Assembly (NCBI RefSeq): GCF_014837295.1
Contig: NZ_JACYHB010000016.1
Coordinates: 38,490-102,489 of the forward strand
DNA: 64,000 nucleotides
Reading direction: 5' to 3'
DNA from: Cellulosimicrobium arenosum
GTDB taxonomy: Bacteria > Actinomycetota > Actinomycetes > Actinomycetales > Cellulomonadaceae
Shown: piece by piece, positions 19,388 through 26,278 of the stretch
Numbering within the stretch: the first letter of the stretch is position 1
Layout of the letters: the number at the start of each line of letters is the position of its first letter
Notes under the pieces: model-generated
What the model saw: only the letters and a program-made list of their open reading frames with translations
Database searches by the model: none
What the model was told of the DNA's origin: nothing
Translations under genes and position numbers: made by a program

Positions 19388-19918
19388 TCAGGCGGCAGCG
19401 CCCTCCGATTCCTGCTTCTGGCGCAGGGCATCGATGACGCGGGCGGCCTGGGCGGTGTTCGCGGTGAAGACGTACGCGGCCTGGTAGAGCTTGGCCTTCA
19501 TCGCGCCGGCCGCCTTGGCCAGCAGGACCTCGCGGGACTCGAGGTCCGCGAGCTTCGTGACCTCCGCAGCGGTCAGGGGGCGTCCGTCGAGGACACCGCC
19601 CTTGATGACCAGTGCGGGGTTCGCCTTGGCGAAGTCACGCAGACCCTTGGCTGCCTCGACCGGGTCCCCGGTGACGAAGGCAATGGCCGACGGGCCCTGC
19701 AGGTCGGCGTCGAGTCCCTCGACACCGGCCTCCTTGGCCGCGATGGCGGTCAGCGTGTTCTTCACCACGGCGTAGGTTGCGTTGCCGCTGAGCGACCGAC
19801 GCAGCTGCTTGAGCTGCGCGACGGTGAGCCCGCGGTACTCGGTCAGCACGGCAGCGTTCGAGTCGCGGAACTTGTCCGAGATCTCGGTGACTGCGGCTGC
19901 CTTGTCCGGCCTCGCCAT
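19388..19918 (-). CDS. rplJ: 50S ribosomal protein L10
   Basis: L10 (176 aa) anchors L7/L12 dimers to 23S rRNA. With L7/L12 it usually represses its own mRNA. Family features are [27 protein letters not shown], the [12 protein letters not shown] helix and the long C-terminal helix with [21 protein letters not shown]. The ATG at 19918 has AAGGA upstream; a longer frame to 20017 has no support. rplJ is separated from rplA by 7.4 kb of other genes, unlike the usual order. Confidence 0.97.
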
Positions 19919-20224: not shown

Positions 20225-22813
20225 TCACAGCACGAGCGGTCCGAAGCACACGAGAGGAACGGGTTCGGGCTCGTCGATGACTGCCCGCGCCAACGCCACC
20301 CCAGGCATCGCGCCGCCGCGCAGCTCCGCATGCAGTGCAGGCATGACGCGCGCGGCGACATCGTCGCGCAGCGGGGCGACGCTCGCGATCACCGCGCGCG
20401 CCCCGAGCCGGAGCAGGACGCTCGTCAGGCCGAGGGACTCCCCTCCGATGCGCGGGGTCGACAGGCCCACCTCGCAGGCCGAGAGCACGACGACGACGCC
20501 GTTCAGGTCGATGCCGTCCAGCTCGTGGGCGAAGAGCGGACCGTCCGTGAGCCGGATCGACGAGAAGAGCGGGTTGTCGGTCTCGTGCGCCCCGTGCGCG
20601 GCCAGGTGGACCACGCCGGCGCCGTCGAGACCGTCGACGACCGCTGCGCACGTCGCGCTCGCGCCGGTCAGAAGGGCCGCCGACTGCCAGGCACCCGCCA
20701 CGAGACGCGCCTCCGCGCTCGAGAACCGCAGCCCCGGGCCACCGACGACCAGTGCATGGTCGGTACGGCGCTGAGGCTGCCCCTGCCGGAGATCTATCCA
20801 GGAGTTCGCCCACGTGCGCAGCCCGCGTCGCGACGGGAGCGCGGCCCACGGGACACCGAGCAGGACGTTGCGCGCCGCAAGATGCAGGTCTCCCTCGGCC
20901 TCGAGAGGCGCGATCAAGGTGTCGTCCAACCAGGCGAGCGTGCGCTGCAAGGACCCGAGTGCGGCCTCGCGCATGGGGACGGGTATGAGTGCGTTGGACA
21001 GGACCGCGAAGTCCGCTCGCGCCCGGCGCACGTGCTCAGACACCTGCTCGAGCGACGCCAGGCGCCGCAGTCGCGATCCCCGCCCGCCGACGCGCACCGC
21101 GGTGACCGCTCCCCCGTCGACCAGCAGGTCTGCGACGACCGTCGACGAGCCGGTGTCCGCGAGCGCGGCACGCAGCGCCCGCTCCGTCGTCGCTACCGGT
21201 ACCGCAACCTCTCCGGAGTCCAGCCACGACCGGCGCCGGGCCTCTTCCTGCAGACGGCGTGCCTCTCGCAGGTGCTGCTGCCGCTCGAGCTGGAGCTCGC
21301 CGTCGGCCGCCGACCCGATGTCGCGCGCGGCCTCGACCTCCCGGCGCGCCCGGGTGAGCAGCCCGGCGTGCGCGGGGTCCGACGGTGGCCGGATGCGTCC
21401 CGACCCCGCGAACGCTGCGCGTCCGCGCTCGACCGCGTCGAAGACGGCGGCAGGGCGCCGCGTCCACAGTGCAGCGGAGACGTCGACGTTTCCCAGTCGA
21501 ACGGCATGGACGGCCGTGGCAGTCACTGCGTCCACGGACCCGAGCCGGGCACGGTGCTCCGCGATCGCCTGTTGTCCGCGACGCACGGAGCGGACACCGT
21601 CGCGCCGGTCCCCGTCCGCGAAGGCGAGCTGGGCTCGCACGGCGTGGTGCTGGACCCGGACCGGGAAAGGTGCCCATGCAGGCAGCCGCCGGACTGCGCC
21701 GAGGATCTCGCGCGCGGCATCGGTCTCGCCTCCGAGCAGAGACCACTCGGCGGCATACAGCCTCGCGGGCACACTGACGCCGAACCTCGCGATCACGCCC
21801 CGCTCGTCGCCCGCCAGAGCGACCTTGAGCGCGAGGCCGCTCCGTCTCCGGGCGCGACGTCGCGCCTCGGAGACGGTGTCCGTCTCGGAGCGGTCCGCTC
21901 CGAGCATGGCCTCGAGCTCGACGACGCGGGCGTAGAGGCACCACGTCGGGTTGCCTGACCGCTGGTACAACCGTCTCGCCTGCACCGCGACCTCGCGTGC
22001 CTCGTCGAACCGGCGCAGCCCGACCAGACATCGGGCCCGGTCGAGCAGCGACTCCGCCCGTTCCAAGCCGAGTCCTTCGTCATCCAGGAGTGACTCGGCC
22101 TCTTCCAGTGCACGCTCCGCCTCGTTCAGCAGGCCGACCTCGAACAGCACCCGCGCGCGCCCGACCAGAGCCATCCCGTCGGCGCCGTCGGGAAGCAGCG
22201 CGACCGACTCGTCCATGAAACGGAGCGCCGCCGGCATGTCGCCCTGCGCGTAGTGCGCGTAGCCGATGTTGTGCAGCGCGAAAGAGGCGTAGTAGTCGTT
22301 GCCCAGGACCCGGGCGTGATGGAGCGCCGCCTCGAAGTCGCGCAGCGCCGCGTCGATCTGCCCGCCGTCCACGTACGCCGAGCCGCGGTTGAGCCGCAGC
22401 AGGGTCATGTCACGCTGGTTGGTCTCGTCGGCCTCGTCCAGTGCCGCCGTCAGCTCGCGCAAGGCCGCCTGGCCATCCCCTGAACGCAGGAGCAGCAGCC
22501 CTCGCTGCCCGTGCACCGACGACCGCAACCGAGGATCTCCGACCTCCAGGGCGATGGCCTCCGCACGGTCGAGCACCTGGTTGCCGGCTCCGACACTTCC
22601 CCGAAGCGCGTAGACGCACGCCGCCGCGCCCACCAGTGCGCGCACGCGCAGCTCGCACGACCAGTCCGTCGCCCCCGCCGACCGCTCCCACCGTTCGACG
22701 TCGCGGACGAGCGCGCGAAAGGCGGTGTGCGCGGGACGCACCCTGGCCAGCGCGTTCAGCTCCTGCGCGGCACGGAGGCGGTCGGTGAACATCGCGCGTG
22801 CGTCACCGTTCAC
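20225..22813 (-). CDS. TPR-CHAT caspase-like protease
   Basis: A predicted cytoplasmic cysteine protease of the CHAT (caspase HetF-associated with TPRs) family, 862 aa. Residues ~1-430 are alpha-helical TPR-like repeats (for example RLNRGSAYVDGGQIDAALRD and FALHNIGYAHYAQGDMPAAL). A charged linker follows, and the CHAT domain fills about 600-862. The predicted catalytic dyad is intact: His740 in VVHLAAHGAHE and Cys780 in VVLSACEVGLS. No signal peptide or membrane segment is seen. The GTG at 22813 is taken as start; an ATG seven codons in is possible. It ends the sigma-subtilase-CHAT module, 21 bases after the subtilase gene. Substrate is unknown. In type III-E CRISPR a TPR-CHAT protease frees a sigma factor from its inhibitor, which makes the sigma gene here notable. 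Confidence 0.88.
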   Translation of the reverse strand: MNGDARAMFTDRLRAAQELNALARVRPAHTAFRALVRDVERWERSAGATDWSCELRVRALVGAAACVYALRGSVGAGNQVLDRAEAIALEVGDPRLRSSVHGQRGLLLLRSGDGQAALRELTAALDEADETNQRDMTLLRLNRGSAYVDGGQIDAALRDFEAALHHARVLGNDYYASFALHNIGYAHYAQGDMPAALRFMDESVALLPDGADGMALVGRARVLFEVGLLNEAERALEEAESLLDDEGLGLERAESLLDRARCLVGLRRFDEAREVAVQARRLYQRSGNPTWCLYARVVELEAMLGADRSETDTVSEARRRARRRSGLALKVALAGDERGVIARFGVSVPARLYAAEWSLLGGETDAAREILGAVRRLPAWAPFPVRVQHHAVRAQLAFADGDRRDGVRSVRRGQQAIAEHRARLGSVDAVTATAVHAVRLGNVDVSAALWTRRPAAVFDAVERGRAAFAGSGRIRPPSDPAHAGLLTRARREVEAARDIGSAADGELQLERQQHLREARRLQEEARRRSWLDSGEVAVPVATTERALRAALADTGSSTVVADLLVDGGAVTAVRVGGRGSRLRRLASLEQVSEHVRRARADFAVLSNALIPVPMREAALGSLQRTLAWLDDTLIAPLEAEGDLHLAARNVLLGVPWAALPSRRGLRTWANSWIDLRQGQPQRRTDHALVVGGPGLRFSSAEARLVAGAWQSAALLTGASATCAAVVDGLDGAGVVHLAAHGAHETDNPLFSSIRLTDGPLFAHELDGIDLNGVVVVLSACEVGLSTPRIGGESLGLTSVLLRLGARAVIASVAPLRDDVAARVMPALHAELRGGAMPGVALARAVIDEPEPVPLVCFGPLVL

Positions 22814-22834
22814 ACGACCGCCCCCGACACGGGA

Positions 22835-24643
22835 TCAGACGGTCGCGGCCCCGTCGGCGAACAGTCGCGGCACACGACGCACAGCATCCCACGCCAGACC
22901 TGTGCGCTGCGAGGCCGCGTCGTCGCCGGACGCGTCGGCTGCGTCACGGCGTCTCCCGCCGCCTTGTGCGGTCGTCCGCCCTTCGAGGAGTCGCGCGGCA
23001 ATCTCTCCCGCGAGGTACGGGGCGGAGAACGACGTGCCGCTCCACGTCGCGAACCCGCCGCCGAAGTCGTCGGGATCCACCGACGCCCGCACCCCTGGTC
23101 CGAGCCGCTCGGGCAGCCGGACCGACGGCGTCAACGGGCCGTCGATGGTGGTGGGCATCGTGCTGACGACGGCGGCTCCGGGCTTCACCGCCGTCACCCA
23201 CGGCCCGTCGTTGCTGAAGACCGCGACGGTCGAGTCCGGGTTCGTCGCCCCGACCGCGAGGATCGGCGTGTACTCGGCCTTCAGGTCGGCACGCTCGCGC
23301 GGGACCGCACCCGCCGGCGTCCTGTCCACGTGCGGCGTCCAGGCGGCGGGGAACATCGGGCGCGTCGTCCCGTCGTTCCCCGCTGCGACGACCACGATGA
23401 TCCCCGCACGGCGCAGAGCACGCAGCACCCGCCGCAGCGGACCGTCGTACCCGTAGTCCTCCGGCTGCTCGTGGTAATAGCCCATCGCGAGCACGACGAC
23501 GTCGACCGGATGGCAGCCCTTCTCGCCACGCAGCCCACGGCGGTGGAAGCGCAGGAGACGCCACAGCGTGTGCAGCACCTCCCATTCCGGGACGTCCCCC
23601 GACCCGCCGAAGGCTCGCACGGACAGCAGCACCGCGTCCGGGCACAGCTGGTGCACGATGCCCGCTTGGAACGTCCCGTGGCCGGCGACCGGGTCGAGCG
23701 GTCCCGTGAGCGGGTCCTTGCTCATCCCGCCGTACTCCGCGTCCTCCGAGTCGATGCGCGGCACGGGGAAGGTCCCGATCGGGCTCCCGTCCAGCTCCGC
23801 GTCGCGCACGACGATCGAGTGCCGCGTGTCCGACCGCTCCCCGGGTGTGTAGTCACCGAACCAGGGATGGGTGCCGACGCCGGTGTCCACGAGCGCGACG
23901 ACCGGCCGGCGGGTGCCGTCCTTCGCCTCCCAGGGCGACGAACCGTCGGCGAGCCTGCGCACGGGTGCCGGTGCGATCATGCGGACGGGCGTCAGGCCGC
24001 CGGACCCCGGATGGCCGTACTCGTCGACCGCACCCACCGGTAGCGGCGACGTCCGAGGCCGGGCGACAGGGATGAACGGCAGCGGAGACGTGCGCCGTTG
24101 GGCGCGCAGGACGTGGTCGAGACCGGCCGCGGGCGCCTCGAGCCCGTCGTCCGGAGCGAGGTCGCGCAGCTCGGACGTCACCCGCTCGAGCACCTCCCAC
24201 GTGTCTGCCTCGACGTCGTCGGAGCGGACGGGCACGAAACGCAGGGCATACCCGAACGGAGACTCGGCGTCGTCGTCCTCGTCCAGTGCGAGGTCTCCCA
24301 GCCGACCGTCGTAGACGACCTGATATCCCATGTCCGCGGCGATCCGACGGACGCCGTCGAGCCACGTCGTCGGCTGCTCGTCCCCCGACCACCTCGGGAG
24401 CGCGACCTCAGCTGTCGGGCCGCCCGCTCGCAAGGCCTCCGCGTCCGAGGACGCGAGGTCCCGCAGGGCGCGGGGAGGCGCACCCCGCACGATGATGCGG
24501 TCCGCCACGTAGGCCGTGGGTTCCACCCGAGAGGCGCCAGGGCTGCGCCGCACACGCTCGGGATCCAGGTGTCGGACGGGTCGACGACCGCCGACGGCAT
24601 CACGGACCGTCCGCGACGGGGGGATCTCAGGGGTCTCGCTCAC
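22835..24643 (-). CDS. intracellular S8-family serine peptidase (subtilase)
   Basis: A subtilisin-like protease of 602 aa with a complete catalytic set: Asp253 in ALVDTGVGTHP, His322 in VAGHGTFQAG, oxyanion Asn423 in VAAGNDG and Ser538 in WSGTSFSAP. No signal peptide or transmembrane segment is present, so it should act in the cytoplasm. The first ~240 residues are a non-catalytic region of unknown fold that could serve as a propeptide or sensor domain. GTG start with AGGAGG six bases before. It lies between the small partner gene and the CHAT gene, so two proteases of different class share one operon with a sigma factor. Confidence 0.93.
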   Translation of the reverse strand: MSETPEIPPSRTVRDAVGGRRPVRHLDPERVRRSPGASRVEPTAYVADRIIVRGAPPRALRDLASSDAEALRAGGPTAEVALPRWSGDEQPTTWLDGVRRIAADMGYQVVYDGRLGDLALDEDDDAESPFGYALRFVPVRSDDVEADTWEVLERVTSELRDLAPDDGLEAPAAGLDHVLRAQRRTSPLPFIPVARPRTSPLPVGAVDEYGHPGSGGLTPVRMIAPAPVRRLADGSSPWEAKDGTRRPVVALVDTGVGTHPWFGDYTPGERSDTRHSIVVRDAELDGSPIGTFPVPRIDSEDAEYGGMSKDPLTGPLDPVAGHGTFQAGIVHQLCPDAVLLSVRAFGGSGDVPEWEVLHTLWRLLRFHRRGLRGEKGCHPVDVVVLAMGYYHEQPEDYGYDGPLRRVLRALRRAGIIVVVAAGNDGTTRPMFPAAWTPHVDRTPAGAVPRERADLKAEYTPILAVGATNPDSTVAVFSNDGPWVTAVKPGAAVVSTMPTTIDGPLTPSVRLPERLGPGVRASVDPDDFGGGFATWSGTSFSAPYLAGEIAARLLEGRTTAQGGGRRRDAADASGDDAASQRTGLAWDAVRRVPRLFADGAATV

Positions 24644-24746
24644 GGGCTCCTCCTAGTGGTCGGGGAATCTCGCTGCGCCGCTCCAGTGCGGGCAGGAAGC
24701 AGGGTCGGGGCATGTGCGGGCGGCGGCTCTCGGAGACGCCGCAGCG

Positions 24747-24774
24747 TGCTGCGGACCCGAGTCGGTCCGCAGCA
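24747..24774 (-). terminator. hairpin between the small partner gene and the subtilase gene
   Basis: A perfect 11-bp stem with a 6-base loop begins 13 bases after the partner-gene stop, in a 143-base gap. It could partly terminate transcripts so that the sigma pair is made in excess over the proteases. Confidence 0.45.
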
Positions 24775-24786
24775 GGCCTGTCGGCG

Positions 24787-25284
24787 CTAGAGCTCGATGA
24801 CCGGCGTGCTCACGGCGCCGCCGGAACCATCGGCGCGTCGGACGACGAGGCTCGCAGGACCGCGCTCCACGGCGTCGAACGCGAAGCGGCCGTCGTCGTC
24901 GCTCGAGGCCTCCGACACCGAGCCGGGCCGGTGCAGCTCGACGCGCAGCGCCGTCGCTGGCGCGGCCCAGCCGTCGATGCGGACGAGGCCGCCGTCCGCC
25001 GGGGACAGCGAGATCATCACGGTCACGGACTCCGACGTGAACGTGATCGTGCGTGCCTCGACGGGTGGGGCGTCGCCCCGGACGGACATCGCGGGGGCCT
25101 GGACGTACTCGAGCTCCATGACCTCGGCCTCGAGCCCGGCGAGCGTGATGGCGAACAACGACCGGTCGACAAGACCTGCGGGGACGGGGTCGATCTCGTC
25201 CGCGATGCGTGCCAGATCGGCGAGCAGGGCGACGTCGACCTCGTCCAGCGGCTCGTCGGGGCTGTGCGTGAACTCTGCGTTCAT
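24787..25284 (-). CDS. small sigma-partner protein, candidate anti-sigma or sensor
   Basis: Not recognised as a named family (165 aa). The ATG overlaps the sigma-factor stop as ATGA, so it is translationally coupled to it. This is the arrangement of an anti-sigma or sigma-associated factor. Residues ~10-60 are helical and acidic, including DEVDVALLADLARIADEIDP and a following LVDRSLFAITLAGLEAEV segment. Residues ~85-165 look like a beta-sandwich of the carboxypeptidase-regulatory type (LRVELHRPGSVSEASSDDDG, FAFDAVERGPASLVV). No zinc-binding HxxxCxxC and no membrane helix is seen, so it is not a classical ZAS membrane anti-sigma. A role as inhibitor cleaved by one of the proteases is inference. 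Confidence 0.6.
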   Translation of the reverse strand: MNAEFTHSPDEPLDEVDVALLADLARIADEIDPVPAGLVDRSLFAITLAGLEAEVMELEYVQAPAMSVRGDAPPVEARTITFTSESVTVMISLSPADGGLVRIDGWAAPATALRVELHRPGSVSEASSDDDGRFAFDAVERGPASLVVRRADGSGGAVSTPVIEL

Positions 25285-25916
25285 GGTGTTTCCCACGATT
25301 CCCCCTGGTCGTCGATGATGTCGCGCAGCTTGGCCAGGCAGCGGCCGCGCGTCGAGCCGATGCTGCCCACCGGCATGCCGGTGGCGGCCGAGATGGCCTT
25401 GTAGTCCGGGCGGTCGGCGAGCGACACGAGCCGCAGCAGCTTCTGGCACCGCTCCGGCAGCCGCGCCATCGCCTGCCACAGGCCCCGGTCGCGCTCGTTG
25501 CCCAGCACCTCCGCCTCCGGGGAGGGGGCCGACGAGGGCAGCTCCGGGATCCCCTCGTCGGTGTCGTCGGGGAGCTCGGTGCGGCGTCGCGCCTCGTCAC
25601 GGTGCCGGCGGACCGCCTCCCAGGAGGCGCGCTTGGCCGTGATCAGCAACCACTTGAGGACCGCGTGCGGCTCCTTGATCGTCGTCGCGTTGCGCACGAG
25701 CGCGACCCACACCGTCTGGACGAGGTCGTCGGCCTGCTCACGATCCACGCCCTGCGCGCGCACGGTGTGCCACAGGAGCGGCGTGGCCTCGCGCACGAAC
25801 GCCTCGAACGCGTGCGTCCGGCCCTCCCGGTACTCGAGGAGCGCGAACGCCCCTCGGTCGCCGAGGCTCTCCTCGGACTCGCCGGTCGGCACCTGTTCGT
25901 CTGTCGGTCTGCTCAT
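25281..25916 (-). CDS. ECF-like RNA polymerase sigma factor
   Basis: A sigma-70 family protein (211 aa from this start) with only regions 2 and 4. Region 2 shows AFEAFVREATPLLWHTVRAQG and QADDLVQTVWVALVRN, then the VLKWLLITAKRASWEAVRRHRDE DNA-melting helix. Region 4 is LPERCQKLLRLVSLADRPDY and the helix-turn-helix AISAATGMPVGSIGSTRGRCL. The ATG at 25916 follows GAGGA by 8 bases. Upstream ATGs at 26018 and 26012 are possible but would place the candidate promoter inside the gene. It heads the operon with the small partner, subtilase and CHAT protease. Target promoters are unknown; it might regulate its own operon. Confidence 0.88.
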   Translation of the reverse strand: MSRPTDEQVPTGESEESLGDRGAFALLEYREGRTHAFEAFVREATPLLWHTVRAQGVDREQADDLVQTVWVALVRNATTIKEPHAVLKWLLITAKRASWEAVRRHRDEARRRTELPDDTDEGIPELPSSAPSPEAEVLGNERDRGLWQAMARLPERCQKLLRLVSLADRPDYKAISAATGMPVGSIGSTRGRCLAKLRDIIDDQGESWETP

Positions 25917-26008: not shown

Positions 26009-26278
26009 CCATGATCATCGGTCACCACCCTTCTGCTGCGCACTGCATCGGTCCATCGTTCTCCTCGGTGGTGATGCGCGGGCCGGGGCCCACCGAGCCC
26101 CGCACGGGACTCTCCACCTGGACGAGAGGCCGCACGAGGTCGCCTGATACGTCCTGAGCGAGACAGTTCAGCACATTTCGCCGACGGACCCGGGACCCAT
26201 CCGATCTCTCGGTGCACTACGAACCCTGCCCGAGGCGCGGGAACGACCCGCGCGCCGTCCACGGAAGCAGGTACCGCC

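Follow-up and report, generated by a model that had tools for sequence, protein, structure and literature searches.

The module locus

The DNA analysed here, hereafter the window, is a 64,000-nucleotide stretch of Cellulosimicrobium arenosum (GCF_014837295.1, NZ_JACYHB010000016.1:38,490-102,489), and positions are given in its coordinates. It contains a four-gene module, which encodes an extracytoplasmic function (ECF) sigma factor, a partner protein, a subtilase (S8) and a protein that joins tetratricopeptide repeats (TPR) to a CHAT protease domain. The module comprises the following features.

25281..25916, minus strand: ECF sigma factor gene (TIGR02937, 73.5 bits; Sigma70_r2, 32.6 bits)
24787..25284, minus strand: partner gene, candidate anti-sigma factor (AlphaFold2 model, weak CarboxypepD_reg match, overlap with the sigma gene)
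25078..25080, minus strand: codon of partner Arg69, candidate cleavage site (near-invariant Arg in a disordered linker)
22835..24643, minus strand: gene of a cytosolic subtilase (S8) with an N-terminal alpha/beta domain and Asp253/His322/Ser538 (Peptidase_S8, PF00082, 63.4 bits)
20225..22813, minus strand: gene of a TPR-CHAT protein with His740/Cys780 (CHAT, PF12770, 93.6 bits, and several TPR models)
26126..26150, minus strand: predicted module promoter GTATCA-N16-CTC (-35/-10), an upstream motif common to module loci

The gene coordinates and the Pfam and NCBIfam matches confirm the original prediction that four minus-strand genes lie in a row, and the sigma stop and the partner start overlap as ATGA in the window sequence, as it had stated. 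In the NCBIfam scan TIGR02937 covers residues 41-205 of the 217-codon stretch used for the sigma factor; in Pfam, Sigma70_r2 scores above its cut-off and Sigma70_r4_2 reaches 18.5 bits, under its cut-off of 25.7. The ATG at 25916 is taken as the sigma start because it aligns with relatives; an alternative start is located at 26018. A hydropathy scan finds no stretch sufficiently hydrophobic for a membrane helix in any of the four window proteins. Among relatives, values above 1.8 on the hydropathy scale occur in 8 of 22 CHAT rows, 2 of 20 S8 rows, 2 of 64 partner rows and none of 22 sigma rows. The CHAT family has one match in the window's own genome, and the best named matches of the window subtilase come from Cellulosimicrobium, Oerskovia and Isoptericola.

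Conservation of the four genes as one unit

Conservation was assessed on locus stretches fetched from related genomes (L### codes; G###, g## and f## denote genomes, genera and families). Some genomes contribute several stretches, and all were fetched via the match of one protein, so that the counts are not independent. The sigma family is present in 75 stretches including the window, and all four families are found in 61 of these, which bears out the expected conserved synteny by a wide margin. The incomplete loci comprise seven in which the sigma-partner pair persists with neither S8 nor CHAT in the stretch, five without the partner and two without the subtilase. Two gene orders are observed, sigma-partner-S8-CHAT and S8-sigma-partner-CHAT. 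In genus g96, which has genomes of 6-10 Mb, the CHAT gene is divergent; in Nonomuraea gerenzanensis the quartet is complete. Subtilase relatives (E<=1e-20) occur in 46 of 297 genomes of the order, distributed over 18 of 95 genera. In a phylum sample of 396 genomes, the partner profile (E<=1e-5) matches 33 and the CHAT profile (E<=1e-60) matches 42; both occur together in 28 versus 3.5 expected (Fisher p 1.5e-27, with related genomes not independent). Chance neighbourhood is excluded by this co-occurrence and by the shared gene context across loci. The four genes are a real, conserved unit, and the gene set itself is already on record.

Two loci carry extra copies. L092 combines a single sigma gene with three partners and two genes each for S8 and CHAT, and L090 has one sigma gene with two of each of the others. 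The copy number of the partner thus follows the proteases rather than the sigma factor, so the partner looks like the link between them.

Several single loci depart from the common arrangement. In genus g168 the sigma-partner pair adjoins a class A penicillin-binding protein gene in L093 and L095 (Pfam on these two); across the g168 genomes of L093, L095, L099 and L111, CHAT is on a separate contig in three of four, and S8 stands beside CHAT in the one that was fetched (L197). In Cellulosimicrobium sp. CUA-896 the subtilase match is split into two overlapping pieces in different frames (L039:8001-9775), and the CHAT gene of L098:11016-14695 matches in three pieces; both may be broken or misassembled copies in single genomes.

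The proteases

Both proteases retain their catalytic residues. The subtilase triad that had been read from the window, Asp253, His322 and Ser538, is present and is invariant in relatives wherever the alignment row reaches (73 rows: Asp 65/65, His 72/72, Ser 63/63). The same is true of His740 and Cys780 of the CHAT protein, each conserved in 73 of the 73 rows that reach it (79 rows in total). The structural model of the subtilase has a pTM (predicted template modelling score) of 0.83, and its Foldseek matches are subtilisins, with lantibiotic leader proteases among them. Long alignments to pro-subtilisins with TM-scores near 0.35 are only suggestive of the N-terminal part being a pro-domain.

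Trypsin-like GDSG proteins are encoded near CHAT at L100:11334-12905 and L199:12553-14112, two stretches in which no S8 is seen (the search for S8 was confined to the stretches). Both proteins bear tandem EPHYQ/EPYYQ-type repeats after the presumed catalytic His. Their trypsin-like assignment rests on alignment, and the related proteins of L089 and L051 score just under the Pfam trypsin cut-off. A trypsin-like protein where no S8 is seen suggests that some serine protease is needed, and S8 is apparently replaced in these two loci.

The partner protein

The sigma gene is followed by the partner gene in 60 loci, and the two overlap in 52 of them, in 37 cases as ATGA or GTGA; the count takes the candidate partner start nearest to the sigma stop, a choice that leans towards overlap. 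The only Pfam match of the partner is a weak one to CarboxypepD_reg (21.2 bits versus a cut-off of 32.3). The AlphaFold2 model, based on 64 sequences, has a pLDDT (predicted local distance difference test) of 85.5 and a pTM of 0.56. It contains two confident helices (residues 15-31 and 38-61), which form a hairpin (15-61), and a confident beta-sandwich (78-165), with a low-confidence linker near residues 56-72 (block pLDDT about 50-70). Within this linker, 63 of 64 alignment rows share Arg69, with Gly or Ser as the usual next residue; a wider set has it in 68 of 73 rows. Such near-invariance in a predicted disordered inter-domain linker makes Arg69 a plausible target for cleavage by a caspase-like or subtilisin-like protease.

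Sequence matches of the partner in the PDB are surface-protein beta-sandwiches and similar folds. A role as a carboxypeptidase was rejected, as Pfam finds no peptidase domain and only the weak match to an accessory, regulatory-like domain; the published 'carboxypeptidase' label probably stems from this regulatory-like beta-sandwich.

A predicted promoter upstream of the module

The region searched for a common upstream motif was the 400 bases upstream of the operon head plus 60 (460 bases). Exact GTATCA-N16/17-CTC is present in this head window in 47 of the 75 loci, with a spacing of 16 in 39 loci and 17 in eight, and the reversed pattern is present in none. All 179 remaining permutations of the hexamer together give 11 matches, seven of which are an overlapping frame of the motif itself. 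In the window the motif occupies 26150-26126. The GTATCT variant was seen by eye in three of the motif-less loci (L051, L204, L208) and in none of the others. In 12 loci the first possible sigma start codon is located 34-36 bases from the start of the motif, as expected for leaderless transcripts.

The motif also precedes S8 genes that head their own unit or a second set (L098, L090). In stretches with CHAT and without sigma it is found in four of six, before S8 (L197, L198, L202) or before the trypsin-like gene (L199). The sharing of one predicted promoter by sigma, subtilase and split protease units suggests one system. The simplest explanation of the common motif would be that the module sigma factor reads it and activates its own operon.

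A proposed model for protease-gated sigma release

The gene content, intact catalytic residues, soluble window proteins, gene overlap and common upstream motif are best explained by a self-amplifying sigma switch that is gated by intracellular proteolysis. We give this explanation an even chance; from the features above we infer that the partner binds the sigma factor and is cleaved. At rest, the partner would hold the sigma factor, probably via its N-terminal helical hairpin. When the TPR part senses a signal, the caspase-like CHAT domain would become active and, directly or by activating the subtilase, would cut the partner, most plausibly at linker Arg69. The freed sigma factor would direct RNA polymerase to GTATCA-N16/17-CTC promoters, its own operon first and then a few lineage-specific outputs. 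Positive feedback on its own operon would also supply fresh partner for switching off.

Several observations weigh against this model. Five of the 75 loci encode sigma, S8 and CHAT with no recognisable partner. Pfam matches no known anti-sigma domain in the partner, only CarboxypepD_reg types; Foldseek returns generic beta-sandwiches with nothing at E<=0.001, and no anti-sigma chain is among the 50 of 891 matches listed. Arg69 could serve binding rather than cleavage. The exact motif is absent from the head window in 28 of the 75 loci, the Nonomuraea stretch has the quartet and no GTATCA site, and L196 and L200, two of the six CHAT-without-sigma stretches, lack the motif.

The proteases could instead destroy the sigma factor and keep the system off, with the partner as an adaptor or delivery factor and no anti-sigma factor involved. 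This corresponds to the view in the ECF54 passage of a review (PMC8999054, citing Casas-Pastor 2021 and Huang 2015), which records a proposal that these sigma factors are controlled by proteolysis and have no anti-sigma factor, on the grounds that carboxypeptidase, subtilase and CHAT proteins are conserved in their vicinity. The window module resembles ECF54 as described there in its ECF sigma factor and its carboxypeptidase-type, subtilase and CHAT neighbours, the carboxypeptidase-type protein here being a weak CarboxypepD_reg match only. This likeness rests on the sigma type and the described gene context rather than on the published ECF54 group model; no ECF54 model is among the Pfam and NCBIfam matches listed (25 of 49 NCBIfam matches for the sigma factor). 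In contrast to the assumption in that passage, the window 'carboxypeptidase' looks like a non-peptidase partner coupled to the sigma factor, and it has two domains and a cleavable-looking linker. Moreover, the shared predicted promoter would raise the destroyer too, which negative feedback could accommodate in a less simple way. Destruction of the sigma factor is thus unlikely, and the protease-gated sigma factor is the best reading, with proteolytic control as such already reported in that passage as a proposal for the same gene context.

Regulon size and motif-headed neighbours

In the window genome, GTATCA-N16/17-CTC has three matches (reversed pattern, one), which are located at the module operon, inside a long open frame on C1 and upstream of a predicted secreted protein on C12. 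The module operon is the only convincing target, and a broad regulon in this genome was rejected. Among eight genomes, the five with the module contain 33 matches (reversed, 5) and the three without it contain 13 (reversed, 6). Further genome scans give 0-7 reversed matches per genome, equal to or above the motif count in several. Since the reversed pattern is often as frequent, a bare genome-wide match means little, and it is the location of a site that counts. In genus g40, the exact TGTATCA-N16-CTC has two matches each in G289, G181 and G167, one at the operon head and one directly after CHAT. Counts in the other eleven genomes of that scan run from 1 to 4, with some of the matches lying here and there within genes; three occur in G069, where the module was not found. 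A motif site directly follows CHAT in all eight g40 stretches that reach past CHAT (L046, L054, L118, L123, L124, L125, L189, L190).

Certain neighbouring genes are also headed by the motif. In L055 it heads a second subtilase. In genus g96 (L087, L106, L107, L108) a 600-650-residue AAA/LuxR-type regulator, assigned by Pfam in L087 and L108 and by similarity in L106 and L107, is encoded some kilobases from the module, with the exact motif upstream in L087, L106 and L108. HopA1-like genes (HopA1 is named after a plant-pathogen effector) and LanC-like genes adjoin the module in L041:10303-12440, L089:12471-17471, L051:11032-14125, L204 and L208, and L110:4569-5408 (HopA1-like only) and L091:24-848 (APH kinase only) also lie beside it. 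In some of the loci, APH or trypsin-like genes accompany the HopA1-like ones. The exact module motif is upstream of the adjacent unit in L041, L089 and L091; the L089 unit contains a trypsin-like gene together with the HopA1- and LanC-like genes.

These neighbours raise the alternative that the proteases mainly mature a product such as a lanthipeptide-type peptide, with sigma factor and partner merely regulating the pathway. In class V lanthipeptide biosynthesis, dehydration of the precursors is the task of HopA1-like and APH-like enzymes (PMC9486802), and the lantibiotic leader proteases among the structural matches of the subtilase point the same way. However, HopA1-like genes are found in only 6 of 86 sequences scanned, the window being among those without a match, and the window genome offers the module operon as its sole convincing target. 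We consider product maturation an improbable main role for the proteases.

Chromosomal position and the question of immunity

The module is positioned between rplKA and rplJL in 13 of 85 stretches scanned, with rplK-rplA on one side and rplL on the other, accompanied by rplJ in 12 of 13. The 13 comprise those of Cellulosimicrobium, Oerskovia and Isoptericola, a further four from the window's family (f1) and L045 from f12. In other families the module sits elsewhere. A fixed place between ribosomal protein genes within a clade looks like vertical inheritance, unlike a mobile defence island. In the rplJ region of the window (19831-19898, plus strand) there is also a sub-threshold match to the CPEB3 ribozyme (22.3 bits versus a cut-off of 35), most likely due to chance.

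The original prediction had left room for a stand-alone immunity module, and an anti-phage or cell-death role like that of Csx29/Csx30/CASP-sigma has the same part types in its favour. Csx30 is cleaved by Csx29 in type III-E CRISPR, an event proposed by the authors to free CASP-sigma (PMC10028731); that system, as described there, likewise combines a TPR-CHAT protease, an ECF sigma factor and a proposed inhibitor partner. ECF sigma genes also adjoin caspase-domain systems: in EACC2-caspase systems, an ECF sigma factor and a DUF1822 TPR protein share one neighbourhood (PMC8195603). The window module resembles the latter, as they are described there, in bringing together a caspase-superfamily protease, an ECF sigma factor and a TPR protein, and differs in having TPR and CHAT in one protein, a subtilase and no DUF1822 match in Pfam. 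It differs from the type III-E system in its extra subtilase and in the absence of a Csx29-level score. The original prediction had seen no CRISPR array, toxin or nuclease nearby, with no repeat or Cas search run. Homology of the CHAT protein to Csx29 was rejected, since NF041237 reaches 21.4 bits versus a cut-off of 300 and covers residues 737-824 only. PADLOC gives weak matches alone, and the adjacent targets examined contain no toxin or nuclease Pfam family. Together with the fixed position between ribosomal protein genes, these results leave the immunity role unsupported and very improbable. By analogy, the protease-gated sigma module would work like the Csx29 circuit.

A predicted G-loop RNA in relatives

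Several copies of the motif precede a predicted structured RNA rather than a recognisable gene. Such sites are located after CHAT (the eight g40 stretches), divergent from S8 (L043, L044, L117, L207), after the partner (L097, L103, L109) or at distal positions (L210, L214, L216, L223). The RNAs show GGGG hairpin loops or tandem CGGGGGA repeats, in most cases with a closing hairpin. Of 17 sites without an obvious reading frame, 14 were analysed; L125, a near-copy of L124, and the unclear L042 and L104 were omitted and have 3, 0 and 1 GGG loops, respectively. One of the 14 (L044) has GTC in place of CTC, and the RNA ends of L123, L189, L190 and L207 were set by eye. The predicted RNAs are 132-342 bases in length with a strong terminal hairpin, and their folding z-scores range from -2.7 to -8.8. 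They contain 33 GGG hairpin loops versus 8.0 +/- 2.6 in 100 dinucleotide shuffles (maximum 16). In equal windows, all 14 sites have a GGG loop (29 loops), versus one loop in total for 40 scattered motif matches and two for 14 module heads. Among further non-module sites, L053 (two sites) and L116 have no GGG loops and L090 has two.

The loop idea was derived from the same 14 sites, and the distal sites, found later, serve as a fresh test. In module-bearing g96 genomes, the RNAs of L210, L216, L223 and L214 contain 7-9 GGGG(G)A words; L224 has four words, L222 has two words and no loop, and L226 has no loop. The fresh g40 site L243 has two loops. Motif matches number 0-1 in each of the four g96 genomes that lack the module, and both matches are without loops. 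Rfam at its gathering threshold identifies only two tRNAs in seven stretches, both outside the RNA sites. The RNA is not found in the window genome, and a search of ten genomes from the window's family for clusters of three GGGGGA words gave none recognised as such an RNA, individual matches not having been examined further.

The G words are complementary to the C loops of 6C RNA. Matches to 6C RNA below the Rfam cut-off occur in 8 of 17 genomes, and a 6C model built from eight sequences matches in 9 of 17 genomes, where two of the matches are weak and one is a sequence from the model itself; none is found in five tested genomes of the window's family. The bases flanking the 6C C-run and the RNA G-run fit well in g96 and not clearly elsewhere, and we claim no covariation. 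The RNA might sequester 6C RNA as a sponge, the pairing being a guess. Tentatively, and with somewhat less than even likelihood, the module would be a two-protease cytosolic switch whose sigma factor, in several actinobacterial lineages, also makes one undescribed structured small RNA displaying GGGG(A) loops or tandem CGGGGGA.

Relation to known systems and significance

In the type III CRISPR Lon protease system CalpL/CalpT/CalpS, the protease acts on the partner of a sigma factor. The window module differs, as the four window proteins have no Lon or SAVED match in Pfam. RseA/DegS and RsiW, named as regulated proteolysis systems in PMC10028731, resemble the proposed module in that an anti-sigma factor is destroyed by proteases. 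They differ in that the four window proteins look soluble, with no membrane step. No test of such a sigma-protease module turned up among the results listed in our literature search.

For ECF54, a sigma group that many Actinobacteria share, the passage in PMC8999054 names no inhibitor, cleavage site or target promoter. The present analysis adds to it the upstream motif, a partner of two domains joined by an Arg-bearing linker, the apparent exchange of S8 for another protease and possible outputs. The partner, Arg69 and GTATCA-N16/17-CTC are now candidates for the inhibitor, the cleavage site and the promoter, which makes the proposed mechanism directly testable. The motif also points to possible outputs beyond the quartet, namely the G-loop RNA, lanthipeptide-type enzymes and a LuxR-type regulator. 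If the model is correct, the module would be a stand-alone, non-CRISPR and fully soluble counterpart of the Csx29-sigma circuit.

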